A program made the position numbers and the translations under genes. Positions 19,644-24,584 of a DNA stretch of 64,000 nucleotides are shown here, in pieces; position 1 is the first letter of the stretch; each line of letters starts with the position of its first letter. The stretch comes from Bacteroidales bacterium (GTDB lineage: Bacteria > Bacteroidota > Bacteroidia > Bacteroidales > FEN-979): positions 32,011 through 96,010 of the forward strand of contig JANXZO010000002.1 of assembly GCA_025355465.1 (NCBI GenBank), given 5' to 3'. The notes below the pieces were generated by a model. That model saw only the letters and a program-made list of their open reading frames with translations. It did not search any database and had not been told where the DNA came from.

Positions 19644-19943
19644 AATATATTGGTGTTTAAATATTTGGCGCTTGTGTTGTGAATTTTCTAACAAACTGCA
19701 AAATTAATGAATTCTGATTTCAAAGCCTAAGAAATTAAAGAAAAAGATAGGACCCTCCCGATCCGTTCATCTTCCGAAAATTCCGGGATAAAAAAAATAA
19801 CGGACGGGAGAGACTGGTGTTCAACATTTTTTGTGAATTAACAAGAATGTATTATCTTTGCACCCCCAATCAAGGAGTTAAGAAATATTAGTTAAGAGTT
19901 AATAGTTTAAGTTTGCTGCAGTTGCAGTAGTAAAAAAGAAAAT
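19644..19943. other. Divergent intergenic region nifJ / rpsT
   Basis: No gene in these 300 bases. It holds the nifJ leader with a TAATTTTG -7-like element on the minus strand, the strong rpsT promoter on the + strand, and an AT-rich rpsT leader of about 75 nt with a short CTGCAGTTGCAG self-complementary stretch. Confidence 0.6.
19830..19860 (+). promoter_or_regulatory. Promoter of rpsT (TTTG / TATCTTTG)
   Basis: TTTG at 19830-19833, a 19-base spacer and TATCTTTG at 19853-19860: a perfect match to the Bacteroidota housekeeping consensus. It fits a highly expressed ribosomal protein gene. Confidence 0.85.
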
Positions 19944-20207
19944 ATGGCAAACCATAAATCAGCAGAGAAGAGAATTCGCAGTACCGAAGAAAAACGCATC
20001 CTGAACAAATACCAGGCCCGCACTGTCCGCAATGCCGTGAAGAAGATCCGTGGCGCCGAAGAGGCAGAGACCCTCACCAAAGAGATCCCGGTCGTCGTTT
20101 CCAAAATCGACAAGCTGGCCAAGAAAAGCGTTATTCACAAAAATAAGGCTGCCAACCTGAAGAGCAAACTGATGAAGAAAGCCAACGCCCTGAAAGTTAA
20201 GGCCTGA
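19944..20207 (+). CDS. rpsT: 30S ribosomal protein S20
   Basis: An 87-residue, Lys/Arg/Ala-rich three-helix protein beginning MANHKSAEKRIRSTEEKR, the typical start of S20 (bS20). It binds 16S rRNA in the small subunit. It has its own promoter and terminator, as usual for rpsT. Confidence 0.97.
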   Translation: MANHKSAEKRIRSTEEKRILNKYQARTVRNAVKKIRGAEEAETLTKEIPVVVSKIDKLAKKSVIHKNKAANLKSKLMKKANALKVKA

Positions 20208-20258
20208 TCTTCCTTCAGTACATCGTATTTTGCAGGTAATCCATGCCTGCTCCCCCAT

Positions 20259-20292
20259 TCCCGATTCGTTGCTGCGTTTCGGGATTTTTTAT
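20259..20292 (+). terminator. Rho-independent terminator of rpsT
   Basis: TCCCGA (20259-20264) pairs with TCGGGA (20279-20284), followed by a run of Ts (TTTTTTATT). It is 50 bases after the rpsT stop and just before the S23 element. Confidence 0.7.
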
Positions 20293-20297
20293 TGTTG

Positions 20298-20849
20298 AAA
20301 AAAGGGGCAAATGGGCACAAGGGCACAAGAGCACAAGAGCACAGGGGCACAGGGGTGGGATTTAACTGATGAATTTTTTTAAGGATTTTATGAGCCCGGA
20401 AAGTTGAGCGTTTATTTTAAACAATTTTCCCTGAATGTCTTTATGTGTGTCCGCTTGCAAATAGCCAAGTTGTGTAGAAATAACCAACAAGGTCTCCAAT
20501 TCAGCAAGACTTGCCTGCGAGATTCTCAGGTATCTTATATATTCGACAGAATACCCCCTTGCCGACCCTTCACTGATGTTAGCCGGAATAGATACCGCAG
20601 CCCGGCGGATCTGGCTGGTAATACTATATAATTCATCCCTGCGAAACTCTTTCGTGATCCTGTAGATCTCAGCTACCAGTCCGATGGCATCCTTCCATAC
20701 GTTTAAATCCTTATGTGTTTCCATCATGCATTTTTAGCATTAATCCTGAAAATCAAAAAAGGCAAACCGGGTGTTGAAAAAAAAATGCAAAATTATTTCC
20801 CTATTTTCCCTTGTGCCCCTGTGCCTTTGTGCCCTTGTGCCCCTTTTTT
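20298..20849. mobile_element. 552-bp element: S23 gene bounded by inverted octamer-array ends
   Basis: The left end starts AAAAAAGGGGCA (20298-20309) and continues as GGGCACAA-type 8-base units to about 20356. The right end is the mirror image, TTGTGCCC-type units from about 20808 ending TGCCCCTTTTTT (20838-20849). The twelve outermost bases are perfectly inverted, and the arrays extend the inverted repeat to about 45-50 bp with mismatches. The only gene inside is a four-helix-bundle (S23) protein on the minus strand. S23 proteins are known from intervening sequences of 23S rRNA genes, where the ORF lies within a large hairpin; here the same arrangement is outside rRNA. No transposase is present and no target duplication is obvious. 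Confidence 0.55.
20362..20727 (-). CDS. Four-helix bundle protein (23S rRNA intervening-sequence / S23 family)
   Basis: A 121-residue helical protein with the family signatures DLNVWKDAIGLV at the start and QIRRAAVSIPANISEGSARG in the middle. Members form pentamer-like four-helix bundles and include the Avd accessory protein of diversity-generating retroelements and the ORFs of 23S rRNA intervening sequences; most have no known role. There is no reverse transcriptase or rRNA nearby. ATG ATG offers two starts (20727 or 20724). It is enclosed by inverted octamer arrays. A TAATTTTG element lies upstream at 20795-20788. Confidence 0.93.
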   Translation of the reverse strand: MMETHKDLNVWKDAIGLVAEIYRITKEFRRDELYSITSQIRRAAVSIPANISEGSARGYSVEYIRYLRISQASLAELETLLVISTQLGYLQADTHKDIQGKLFKINAQLSGLIKSLKKFIS

Positions 20850-20877
20850 GCAATTCATCCAATTGTGAGTACCTTTG
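20847..20877 (+). promoter_or_regulatory. Promoter of glsB-glsA, sharing the end of the S23 element
   Basis: TTTG at 20847-20850, 19 bases, then TACCTTTG at 20870-20877: a full match to the Bacteroidota consensus. The TTT of the -33 box are the last bases of the right inverted end of the S23 element. Confidence 0.7.
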
Positions 20878-20882
20878 TTAGA

Positions 20883-20922
20883 CAAATGGTAAAATGGCAA
20901 GATCTAAAATGGTAAAATGGGG
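20883..20922. repeat. Octamer array (AAAATGGT-type) in the glsB leader
   Basis: Five imperfect 8-base units (CAAATGGT, AAAATGGC, AAGATCTA, AAATGGTA, AAATGGGG) occupy the predicted 5' untranslated region of glsB and run into the first possible ATG. Confidence 0.6.
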
Positions 20923-20931
20923 AGGGGGGAG

Positions 20932-21906
20932 ATGGAGCAGATTGTGAGGCCGGTGGATCCGTTGTTGCTGGAGGCGGAGCTTACGGATACGAAGTTTTTG
21001 CGCAACACCAACAACGGGCACAATAAGATCTATGTGTTCACGGCGCAGGATTCGCCAAACCTGATGCGGGAGGTGGGTCGGCTCCGCGAGATCACTTTCC
21101 GCGATGCCGGGGGTGGTACGGGCAGGGAGATCGACATCGACGAATTCGACACCATGGAGGTTCCGTTTCACCAGCTTATCGTGTGGGATCCGCAGGAAAA
21201 GGAGATTGTGGGCGGATACCGGTTTATTCATGGCCGCGACATCCCCTGCGACACACGCGGTTGCATCCACAGTGCCACCGCCGAACTGTTTGAGTTTTCC
21301 AGCCGCTTCGTACGCGACTTCCTCCCCATCAGCATCGAACTCGGCCGCTCCTTCGTGCAACCTAACTACCAGCCCACCGTCAACTTCCGCAAAGGAATGT
21401 ACAGTCTCGACAACCTATGGGACGGTCTCGGCGCCATGATCATCGAAAACCCCGACGTGAAGTATTTCTTTGGCAAAATGACCATGTACCCCGACTATAA
21501 CTGCATGGCCCGCGATACGGTGCTCTATTTCCTGCGCACCTTCTTCCCCGATAAGGAACGACTCATGATCCCGCGCGAACCGGTGCTTCCGGAAACGCCG
21601 GTGGAAAAGATCGCCCCGCTCTTTACCAAACCTACCTACGAGGAGAACTACAAAACCCTTGTACACGAAATCAAGAATCTCCACGAAAACGTACCCCCGC
21701 TGGTGAACGCCTACATGAACCTCTCCCCCACCATGCGCACCTTTGGAACCGCCATCAACCACGACTTCGGCGAAGTGGAGGAGACCGGCATCCTGATCTA
21801 TATCGAAGACATCTACCCGCGTAAAAAAGAGCGTCACCTGCTCAGCTACATCGAACGGCTCTCCAACCTGAAGGGGCTTGGGTTGAGGTGGAGGAGGAGG
21901 AGGTAA
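20932..21906 (+). CDS. glsB: GNAT-type N-acyltransferase, GlsB-like (glycine lipid synthesis)
   Basis: About 324 residues. ATG 20932 (MEQIVRPVDP) is preferred because the ATG at 20917 lies within a tandem array. The family joins an OlsB/hemolysin-like acyltransferase domain (REITFRDAGGGTGREIDIDEFD, VGGYRFIHG) with a C-terminal extension. In Bacteroides thetaiotaomicron GlsB transfers a 3-hydroxy-acyl group to glycine and GlsA then adds an ester-linked acyl chain, making glycine lipids. The following gene is the matching O-acyltransferase. The substrate assignment rests on that family and order, not on the sequence itself. Confidence 0.8.
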   Translation: MEQIVRPVDPLLLEAELTDTKFLRNTNNGHNKIYVFTAQDSPNLMREVGRLREITFRDAGGGTGREIDIDEFDTMEVPFHQLIVWDPQEKEIVGGYRFIHGRDIPCDTRGCIHSATAELFEFSSRFVRDFLPISIELGRSFVQPNYQPTVNFRKGMYSLDNLWDGLGAMIIENPDVKYFFGKMTMYPDYNCMARDTVLYFLRTFFPDKERLMIPREPVLPETPVEKIAPLFTKPTYEENYKTLVHEIKNLHENVPPLVNAYMNLSPTMRTFGTAINHDFGEVEETGILIYIEDIYPRKKERHLLSYIERLSNLKGLGLRWRRRR

Positions 21907-21907
21907 T

Positions 21908-21957
21908 GTGGTGATGTGGTAATGCACGGATGCCCTTGTGCCCCTGTGCCCCTGTGA
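21908..21957. repeat. Octamer array switching unit type, between glsB and glsA
   Basis: Six consecutive 8-base units in one register: GTGGTGAT, GTGGTAAT, GCACGGAT, GCCCTTGT, GCCCCTGT, GCCCCTGT. The first units are the complement of the CACATTAC type seen later; the last are the GTGCCC type found at the ends of the S23 element. Confidence 0.65.
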
Positions 21958-21969
21958 CTTTTAACTAAG

Positions 21970-23013
21970 ATGGAAGAAATAACCGAAAAACTGATTGACA
22001 TAGAGGCGGTCATTGCTTCAAAAAACCCGAAGATCCTTAAGTGGATCCCGGAGTTTGTACTGAGGTATCTGAAGCGGATCATTCACCAGGATGGGGTAAA
22101 CGGCTACATCTGGCGGAACCGCCACCTCTCCGGTGTGCCTTTTGTGGAGGCGATCCTGAAGGAGTTTGGGGTGAAGGTTCGGGTGGTTAATGCACGAATG
22201 CACGAATGCACGAATGCACAAATGAACGAATACATATTACCACATCACCACATTACCACATTAAAAACGGGAAGGTATATCATTGCCTGCAACCATCCGC
22301 TGGGGGGAATCGATGGCATGGCGCTGATGCAGGAGGTGGGAAGGGTGCGGCCCGATATCGTCTTCCCGGTGAATGACCTGCTGATGAATGTGCCCGGACT
22401 CCGTCCGCTCTTTATCCCCATCAACAAACACGGAAAGAACACCGAAAACGCCAGGATCATCGACGAAACCTTTGCCTCCGACAAGCTGGTGCTCTATTTC
22501 CCTGCCGGACTGGTGTCGAGGAAGATGAAACTTGTACCCTCCCCCAACCCCCTCCCTGCTGGCAGGGAGGGGGCGAGGGGGTGGGTAGAAGATACCCCCG
22601 GGAAGCCCGGCAGATATGTTATACGGGATCTGGAGTGGAAATCGACGTTTATCAAAAAGGCCCGGAAGTACCAGCGGGATGTGATCCCGGTGCACATCGA
22701 CGGACGCAACAGCGAGTGGTTTTACAACCTGGCCCGCTGGCGCAAGAAGCTCGGGATCAGTGCCAACCTCGAGATGCTGTACCTGGTGGACGAGATGGCC
22801 AAACAGTTCGGCAAAACCATCTCCCTCACCTTTGGCGAACCCATCCCCTTCTCCACCTTCGACAAATCCAAAACCGACACTCAATGGGCGGAATGGGTAA
22901 AGAATATTGTTTACGACTTACCTCAACTTTCACCTCACCCCCCTAACCCCTCTCCTGAAGGCGAGGGGGAGCGCTCATCACCACATTACCACATTATCAC
23001 ATTAACACATTAA
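21970..23013 (+). CDS. glsA: 1-acylglycerol-3-phosphate-type O-acyltransferase, GlsA-like, with repeat insertions
   Basis: A 347-residue PlsC-fold acyltransferase. The catalytic motif is CNHPLGGIDGMAL (HxxxxD-like) and the second block is VLYFPAGLVSR. It follows glsB and probably adds the ester-linked acyl chain of glycine lipids. Two segments look foreign: about 24 codons between VRVV and KTGRYIIA, encoded by a 9-unit octamer array, and about 27 codons between SRKMK and YVIRDLEW, encoded by a palindromic repeat. The last 25 residues are encoded by another palindrome and array, which also supplies the stop codon. The frame stays open throughout, so the protein may still work, but this is untested. 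Confidence 0.82.
   Translation: MEEITEKLIDIEAVIASKNPKILKWIPEFVLRYLKRIIHQDGVNGYIWRNRHLSGVPFVEAILKEFGVKVRVVNARMHECTNAQMNEYILPHHHITTLKTGRYIIACNHPLGGIDGMALMQEVGRVRPDIVFPVNDLLMNVPGLRPLFIPINKHGKNTENARIIDETFASDKLVLYFPAGLVSRKMKLVPSPNPLPAGREGARGWVEDTPGKPGRYVIRDLEWKSTFIKKARKYQRDVIPVHIDGRNSEWFYNLARWRKKLGISANLEMLYLVDEMAKQFGKTISLTFGEPIPFSTFDKSKTDTQWAEWVKNIVYDLPQLSPHPPNPSPEGEGERSSPHYHIITLTH
22189..22262. repeat. Octamer array inside glsA, in frame
   Basis: Nine 8-base units in one register (AATGCACG three times, AATGCACA, AATGAACG, AATACATA, TTACCACA, TCACCACA, TTACCACA), 72 bases or exactly 24 codons. The unit type changes from GCACGAAT to CACATTAC part-way while the phase is kept. Confidence 0.7.
22536..22605. 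repeat. GC-rich palindromic repeat inside glsA, in frame
   Basis: The core is CTCCCTGC-TG-GCAGGGAG, flanked by C-rich and G-rich arms that continue the symmetry (CCCCAACCCC left; GGGGGTGGGTAGAAG right). The same core occurs at 27099-27116 and 28788-28806 between genes. It is translated here as a Pro/Gly/Arg-rich insert. Confidence 0.7.
22929..22972. repeat. Imperfect GC-rich palindrome at the 3' end of glsA
   Basis: CCCCTCTCC-TGAA-GGCGAGGGG forms a hairpin with one internal mismatch. It encodes a Pro-rich stretch near the C-terminus of GlsA and immediately precedes an octamer array. Confidence 0.55.
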
Positions 23014-23045
23014 CACATTAACACATTAACACATTACCACATTAA
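22982..23045. repeat. Octamer array (CACATTAA-type) spanning glsA stop to engB start
   Basis: Eight perfect-length 8-base units, CACATTAC/T/A. The glsA stop codon TAA (23011-23013) is inside the array and the engB ATG begins at 23048, two bases after it. Confidence 0.75.
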
Positions 23046-23047
23046 CT

Positions 23048-24484: not shown

Positions 24485-24493
24485 TGGGCAAAA

Positions 24494-24578
24494 GTTAAGA
24501 GTTAGGAGTTAAGAGTTAAGAGTTAGGAGTTAAGAGTTAATCATTTTTAACTCTTAACTTTTAACTAAAAACTGTTAA

Positions 24579-24584
<6 letters not shown>
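24494..24584. repeat. Heptamer arrays forming a 12-bp perfect hairpin between carboxylase subunits
   Basis: Six GTTAAGA/GTTAGGA units (24494-24535) run into GTTAAGAGTTAA (24529-24540), a TCATTT loop, and TTAACTCTTAAC (24547-24558), continued by TTAACTT-type units. The hairpin lies between the carboxyltransferase stop and the biotin carrier start and could modulate the ratio of the two products. Confidence 0.7.

Follow-up and report, generated by a model that had tools for sequence, protein, structure and literature searches.

S23 genes between inverted heptamer and octamer arrays: a probable free-standing mobile relative of 23S rRNA intervening sequences

Comparison of an S23 gene enclosed by inverted octamer arrays, found in a window of 64,000 nucleotides (the whole stretch of DNA that was analysed), with S23 loci of other genomes and plasmids indicates that the feature is probably a free-standing mobile relative of the intervening sequences (IVS) of 23S rRNA, made up of one S23 gene in roughly 400-550 bp that end in inverted arrays of 7-8 bp units. 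S23 genes are associated with such arrays, the inverted units are specific to each locus, whole units have inserted into plasmids, and array-only forms occur. Against this reading stands the observation of a clean 5-bp duplication at one site only. An earlier note on this DNA had put forward a free-standing, IVS-like element that ends in arrays and is either mobile or folds as RNA, and that proposal is supported, with the insertion of the window copy itself being something that we infer because gene order at its site is rearranged.

The element in the window

Perfect inverted ends, AAAAAAGGGGCA (20298-20309) and TGCCCCTTTTTT (20838-20849), bound the element (Table 1), and its arms (20298-20337 versus 20810-20849) are 88% complementary across 40 nt. 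Tandem Repeats Finder returned 6.4 copies of GGGCACAA on the left (20305-20355) and 4.4 copies of CCCTTGTG on the right (20808-20842), such that the inverted ends with octamer arrays described in the earlier note are indeed present. Scored by local alignment of the 5' flank against the reverse complement of the 3' flank (at most 450 nt each; threshold 17), the arms of the window locus reach 27.5, and their origin by chance was ruled out, with a score of at least 17 at just 4 of 3000 random positions from its own genome and five related ones. The predicted fold of the minus-strand RNA (20290-20857) has a basal stem of 47 pairs, with interruptions, that encloses the gene and agrees with the stem of 'some 45 bp' suggested before; its stability corresponds to z = -3.66, with 0 of 100 shuffles equally stable.

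The enclosed gene (20362-20727) was likewise borne out as S23, matching PF05635 (23S_rRNA_IVP) at 117 bits over a cut-off of 33.8 and also TIGR02436 at 114 bits over a cut-off of 24, with only PF05635 and bAvd among its matches and Y1 transposase not encountered. Its predicted structure (pLDDT 95) matches in Foldseek the S23 protein 2gsc (XCC0516, Xanthomonas) at a TM of about 0.9 and also 2rld (BT_0352), which is consistent with the four-helix bundle claimed for it; weaker matches were Avd 4dwl (TM 0.78, E 0.018) and the ribonucleoprotein chains 8ub7 of diversity-generating retroelements (DGRs). The Avd profile NF033474 gave 22.5 bits, far under its cut-off of 80; the relation to DGRs and Avd that had been brought forward holds as a link of fold, not of function. 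The genome's single RVT_1 match lies on contig C64 and the window on C7, so that no reverse transcriptase stands beside S23. Six residues (Q39, R42, S46, N50, E53 and E76) are each conserved in at least 146 of 165 S23 sequences, and the first five fall on one predicted helix with a spacing of 3-4-4-3; these near-invariant residues could form either an active site or a packing surface, and we know of no catalytic motif in S23. The PDB entry of the relative 2gsc has five chains, and the available text of a paper on Coxiella terms this protein a homopentamer (PMC4990558).

On either side of the element lie rpsT (19944-20207) and a gene for a GNAT acyltransferase (20917-21906; called 'glsB' in the earlier note). 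No rRNA match was found in 19700-21200, which places the element outside any rRNA gene, between rpsT and the acyltransferase gene, and none of six 23S motifs was present in the loci searched. Rfam returned nothing near a gathering score for the region (the best was U4atac-like, at 21.2 bits versus 53), a scan for sigma-70 promoters and terminators gave no excess over shuffles, and no target site duplication was identified at the window locus. Of 98 loci of the family, 49 have GATTAA in the 75 nt that precede S23, compared with 8 of 98 downstream and 2 of 98 far upstream, and this motif before the S23 start may belong to a promoter or leader that is kept with the gene.

Table 1. Features of the S23 element and of the solo arrays near it in the window.
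Feature	Position	Strand	Remark
Whole S23 element, array to array	20298..20849	-	552 bp; inverted ends and anatomy common to 126/160 S23 loci
Left arm: GGGCACAA octamer array preceded by the A6 GGGG end	20298..20355	.	
S23 / 23S_rRNA_IVP four-helix-bundle protein gene, 121 aa	20362..20727	-	PF05635 117 bits; predicted fold matches 2gsc
GATTAA leader motif, common to many S23 elements of the family	20740..20745	-	Counts over 98 loci
Right arm: octamer array, opposite orientation, CCCC T6 end	20808..20849	.	
Solo AAATGGTA array	20884..20920	.	Unit close to S23 element L009 of the own genome
Solo TGCCCCTG array	21931..21956	.	Near the unit of the window's own element
Solo ACCACATT array	22239..22263	.	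Unit as in S23 element L005 of the own genome
Solo CACATTAA-type array	22976..23046	.	
AGTTAAG array, then TTAACTC / TTTTAACTAAAAAC rows	24493..24584	.	Geneless inverted pair, MITE-like; unit as in S23 element L006

Arms, units and solo arrays in other genomes

The window's own genome holds nine S23 genes, of which eight are testable on both sides, and inverted arms are found at 6 of these 8 with a different unit at each (CGTGACG, GGGCACAA, TAATGTGG, AGTTAAG, an ATTG-rich unit and AAATGGTG); the suggestion that further S23 genes of the genome would be bounded by inverted arrays held at these six loci and failed at the other two. S23 is present in 27 of 31 genomes (the own genome and 30 relatives) in at most 22 copies each, for 220 matches in total, and a scan of contigs from one genome per species gave 67 named S23 loci that span Bacteroidota, Cyanobacteria, Gastranaerophilales, Planctomycetota, Patescibacteria, Nitrospirota, Verrucomicrobiota, Ignavibacteria and others. 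Arm scores of at least 17 were obtained at 6 of 8 loci of the own genome, 74 of 88 of the relatives and 46 of 64 named loci, or 126 of 160 testable loci (5 of 165 were left out with flanks too short), a rate that leans to the best-conserved type since the 89 of 211 S23 matches taken from outside the own genome came mostly from the high-scoring end. Orthologous loci in these counts are not independent and MAG contigs may be misbinned; after removal of three duplicate records, 123 of 157 S23 loci have inverted arms.

Controls rarely reached the threshold. Small ORFs outside long ORFs did so in 2 of 177 cases, and 5' and 3' flanks taken from different loci did so in 0 of 56 pairs of the own genome, 2.1% of 1307 pairs of the relatives and 1.8% of 946 pairs of the named loci; because such cross-locus pairs rarely pass, the arm match is specific to the locus. 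The best period of the 5' arm was 7, 8 or 14 in 107 of the 126 loci, the median arm measured 37 nt, and the 5' arm was more than half purine in 108 of 126. Among the 123 arm-bearing loci left after deduplication, a 5' unit was called at 97, and these units fall into 57 clusters. Counting against the mobile reading, scores below 17 were found at 34 of 160 loci and below 15 at 28 (for example L008 and L034, which are without arms). The S23 type of L008, L032 and L034 occupies a conserved position on the chromosome and has arm scores below 15, with two weak arrays in L032; it is possibly a copy adopted by the host.

Some loci differed in their details. At a few, such as L103, the arms appear by eye as inverted repeats that do not look like arrays. 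L142 and L149, from two genera, carry S23 and an ATGCTGG-type array close to a tRNA-Arg (CCG) gene, and L147, with the same type of unit, has no tRNA in its stretch. In L006 (862-935) the words of a single array change along its length, GCACAGAG giving way to GCACATTG and then to CCACATTA, as though each had evolved into the next.

Sequence comparison of S23 pairs gave pN/pS of 0-0.3 in 17 of 20, with the reading frame conserved, which indicates that S23 is under purifying selection; higher values were seen for L015/L056 and L051/L056 (about 0.4) and for L086/L117 (0.68), and in the last pair one copy may be decaying. Orthologous loci further allowed the two arms to be compared across and within sites. 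The arms of L016 score 34.0 with each other and 7.5-15.0 when paired, in either direction, with those of its four orthologues, and L051 and L056 score 52.5 and 55.5 with themselves, whereas against L015 and L062 they score 8.5-12.5 in seven of the eight pairings and 18.5 in the eighth (L062 is irregular, part of its 5' array appearing inverted by eye). These scores show that the unit has drifted at some orthologous sites, whose flanks are conserved, while the arms of a locus still match. Most orthologues of set A and all of set C have one common unit, often with equal scores across and within loci, and are therefore uninformative on joint drift.

Arrays also occur solo, at positions that were intergenic at the loci inspected. 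A sample of 1.26 Mb from six genomes contained 134 arrays of period 5-12, and 124 of these had period 7 or 8. The window itself holds, between 21902 and 29746, some fifteen short arrays of period 7-8 that are built of other words. Solo arrays number 5.5-12.5 per 100 kb in nine genomes of the family, and none was present in 518,878 bp of five genomes that belong to other families and have 0-3 S23 genes; across 14 genomes solo arrays correlate with S23 (Spearman 0.66, p = 0.011), with kinship as a confounder. In eight Bacteroidales genomes, the match between solo units and the S23 units of the same genome is 0.342, versus 0.168 when genomes are permuted (p = 0.004), own units being the best match for G000 (the window's genome) and G009, tied for G008, and not best for G001, G004, G011, G017 and G018.

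Pattern counts in 13 cyanobacteria, in which matches overlap with several per array, revealed a similar tendency. AGGGAACx3, with one mismatch allowed, had 593, 374 and 230 matches in the three genomes with AGGGAAC in their S23 arms (those of L086, L117 and L080); exceptions were 778 in G041, where the S23 examined has another arm, and 69 in G036, the other eight genomes having 0-6. GAAGGAAx3 had 221-658 overlapping matches in four Microcoleus genomes whose S23 arm carries this unit and 0-4 in each of the remaining nine, the four positives being one genus and the pattern so nearly equal to its reverse that the built-in control is uninformative. AGCGAAA arrays are abundant in stretches L196-L205 of G007, where several form pairs, either inverted or direct; a matching unit is absent at the single S23 locus fetched from G007, and no S23 unit seen matches. 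Judged from their units, then, solo arrays tend to carry those of resident S23 elements, with exceptions.

Units present or absent as a whole on cyanobacterial plasmids

PLSDB holds S23 in 39 records, 37 of them cyanobacterial, and phage records searched for S23 gave zero matches. All 11 fetched plasmid loci with an S23 gene have arms that score at least 18.5 (the truncated copy of L305 uncounted), and comparison of plasmids revealed that the complete unit is either present or missing. At a site between two genes of a conjugation region, the unit occupies L299 (Trichormus variabilis ATCC 29413 plasmid C) and L300 (Scytonema NIES-4073 plasmid1), and four of six other records fetched are empty (L302, L303, L304 and L311) at 97.5-98.1% identity. 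The empty form reads AAAAAGTAATTAACAAAT without a unit and the occupied form reads AAAAAGTAAT, then 423 bp, then GTAATTAACAAAT, with GTAAT flanking the 423-bp insert and single in the empty site, which is a clean 5-bp duplication. Both arrays lie within this insert and are absent together with the S23 gene at the empty sites, and no transposase gene was found in it. L300 and L299 are 14 bp, or two units, apart in one arm. The same site carries an inverted-array hairpin without S23 in L306 (a Brasilonema plasmid), and an array with a truncated S23 in L305 (Nostoc C052).

Other sites gave the same pattern with less distinct duplications. In a gap (A-B) of Nostoc plasmids, an S23 unit is present in L309, L319 and L308 and the site is empty in L312-L315, with a likely TTCTA duplication that can also be read as array sequence; in the gap that follows (B-C), a different S23 unit is present in L313 and the site is empty in L312, L314, L315, L309 and L319, with one mismatch in the duplication; and a site after an integrase gene carries a unit in L296 and L297 but not in L316-L318, with flanks too divergent for a duplication to be called. 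At these four plasmid sites the unit sits at a stop/start junction and is oriented like its neighbours. A fifth pair, at 85% identity, has an S23 unit between both ribonucleotide reductase genes of a Nostoc plasmid (L301) that is absent in a Calothrix plasmid (L310).

On chromosomes, L086 and L117 of two Nostocales stand at unrelated places yet have in common a stretch of 514 bp, 92.6% identical, that includes the arms; the site of L086 is empty in the other genome, and in the reverse comparison the two flanks of L117 map to separate contigs there. The S23 gene of L308, intact in L309, is split by 182 bp of array-bounded sequence that has no S23, and this nested insert (region 1565-2000) has no clear duplication. 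By eye, it has other inverted sequence in its middle. Two accounts were rejected: arrays as pre-existing targets at the plasmid sites, since the empty ones carry no array, and purely vertical inheritance, given presence and absence at 97.5-98.1% identity and the unrelated places of L086 and L117.

The duplication of 5 bp and the inverted ends resemble DNA transposition, and with no transposase gene in the 423-bp insert the unit could be a MITE-like passenger of an ordinary transposase acting in trans, S23 being cargo or regulator. We consider this unlikely, as a usual transposase requires a fixed terminal sequence whereas the units form 57 clusters in 97 loci with no fixed terminus; moreover, S23 is the gene common to units across phyla (partly by design, as the search was for S23), and it is under purifying selection. 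It is very improbable, too, that the arrays are ordinary host microsatellites arising from replication slippage, with S23 merely inserting into or beside them. Solo arrays of 7-8 bp are indeed common (5.5-12.5 per 100 kb in nine genomes) and copy number does change by whole units, as in the 14 bp between L299 and L300, but gene and both arrays arrive together at plasmid sites that are otherwise without an array, inverted arms are not expected from insertion into one array, and the five genomes with 0-3 S23 genes, albeit of other families, have 0 arrays in 518,878 bp.

Sets A and B, in which orthologous S23 genes are kept at a conserved site in several genera, would fit a vertically inherited S23 host gene with the arms as its regulatory or terminator hairpin. 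This we hold to be scarcely probable in general, against presence and absence at about 98% identity, a near-identical element at unrelated sites (L086/L117), as many as 22 copies per genome, and an array-bounded insert within a gene (L308); it is contradicted for the plasmid copies and may hold for old copies such as L008. The free-standing mobile element remains the reading that we prefer.

For the window's own site, 24 loci around acyltransferase homologues of relatives (the last seven being distant paralogues) had S23 within 1.5 kb in 0 of 24, and the window's order of rpsT, S23 and acyltransferase gene was not conserved in them. In L272, L273, L274 and L277 the acyltransferase gene adjoins rpsT, convergently, with neither S23 nor arrays, and in 3 of 24 (L275, L278 and L279) arrays lie near the acyltransferase gene with no S23. 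The empty-site comparison proposed in the earlier note was therefore answered in part: four loci of relatives show the two genes abutting without S23 or arrays, which lends support, but gene order is rearranged, such that no clean empty site for the window locus was found in the relatives, and arrays do occur there without the gene in 3 of 24.

Proposed mode of movement and comparison with known systems

A mechanism can be proposed in which the element's RNA would fold into one long hairpin, and a pentamer of S23 would recognise the repeat-built stem through its period and symmetry and not through a fixed sequence. S23 would then move in trans both its own unit and array-only units, which is the reason proposed for solo arrays tending to match the resident S23 unit. 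Cutting and joining of the DNA might be done by S23 itself or by a factor of the host. Units may be gained and lost by slippage, and pairing between the arms would keep them alike, so that both drift together. Taken to its full extent, this reading has S23 mobilise a transposable element of a new kind, with ends set by period and mirror symmetry and not by sequence, in which a ring pentamer of S23 reads a stem of 7-8 bp repeats and moves any array-bounded unit in trans, and would thereby be the source of the scattered heptamer and octamer arrays of cyanobacteria, Bacteroidota and Xanthomonas, with the 23S rRNA IVS as its rRNA-resident branch; we put this forward tentatively, with somewhat less than even confidence.

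Alternatively, the unit may move via RNA, with the S23 pentamer passing the hairpin RNA to a reverse transcriptase in the manner of Avd. The predicted S23 fold matches Avd (4dwl) and the DGR ribonucleoprotein chains (8ub7), and a long hairpin is predicted for the element's RNA; we nevertheless regard this route as quite unlikely, given an Avd profile score of 22.5 versus 80 bits, RVT_1 not being found (E <= 0.001) in 17 of 31 genomes, and inverted arms at 37 of 41 tested S23 loci in ten RVT_1-negative genomes. Arms in genomes with no RVT_1 match rule out that a resident RVT_1 reverse transcriptase is needed to carry the units, and it is possible that past movement depended on a reverse transcriptase since lost, or on one missed in an incomplete assembly.

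The association of S23 with arrays ties S23 proteins, known mainly from a solved structure, to heptamer arrays for which the consulted passages of the papers give no origin, and it places the 23S rRNA IVS within a mobile family. Should S23 itself be what moves the unit, recognition of the ends would rest on period and symmetry, and to our knowledge no element class with ends recognised in this way is known. If the reading holds, tiny mobile elements of a widespread class would seed the short repeats scattered in these genomes.

Among known systems, REP/RAYT resembles these units in having a gene between inverted repeats and many solo repeat copies in the genome, both of which are found here with exceptions. 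RAYT is a Y1 HUH enzyme that acts on conserved palindromes, with REP flanking it and solo REP copies in the genome, whereas S23 is a four-helix bundle and the repeat sequence here is not conserved. MITEs and insertion sequences likewise share inverted ends and geneless derivatives, and the target duplication typical of them is clean here at one plasmid site and ambiguous at three others, but the units described here are without transposase and without a fixed terminal sequence (57 clusters in 97 loci). With Avd of DGRs the window S23 shares its fold (Foldseek, predicted model), and differs in falling below the Avd profile cut-off and in having no adjacent reverse transcriptase; a resemblance of PF05635 to Avd is stated in the available text of PMC10053308.

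The heptameric STRR/SSR of cyanobacteria, Xanthomonas and Beggiatoaceae are, like the arrays here, intergenic tandem 7-mers, and STRR were reportedly described in cyanobacteria in 1990. In the portions of the papers available, heptamer arrays are described for Nostoc and for Xanthomonas, two genomes of the latter having 70 and 75 inverted pairs (PMC4692102), and for Beggiatoaceae, Cyanobacteria and five Bacteroidetes (PMC4679880); those portions give no origin of the arrays, and the term S23 is absent from both texts. Xanthomonas is thus a genus with a solved S23 protein (2gsc) besides inverted heptamer pairs. The portions available of two papers on cyanobacterial genomes (PMC8700078, PMC4907049) hold nothing on a link between S23 and arrays, and none was found in titles, abstracts and passages of the open-access literature, subscription papers lying outside this scope.

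The closest comparison is with the 23S rRNA IVS of Coxiella and Leptospira, in which an S23 gene lies in the loop of an inverted-repeat stem, and the window element has such a gene and a predicted stem. The IVS lie within rRNA genes, whereas the S23 units here lie between protein genes, each of their arms contains a long array, the repeat differs from site to site, and there is direct evidence of insertion. The Coxiella IVS has a 28-bp inverted-repeat stem and an S23p ORF, just upstream of which stand direct heptamers GACAGAT, 2-3 by strain, and the same paper, in the text available, cites the suggestion of others that IVS are or have been mobile (PMC4990558). The Coxiella IVS shows, in small, the anatomy of these units.
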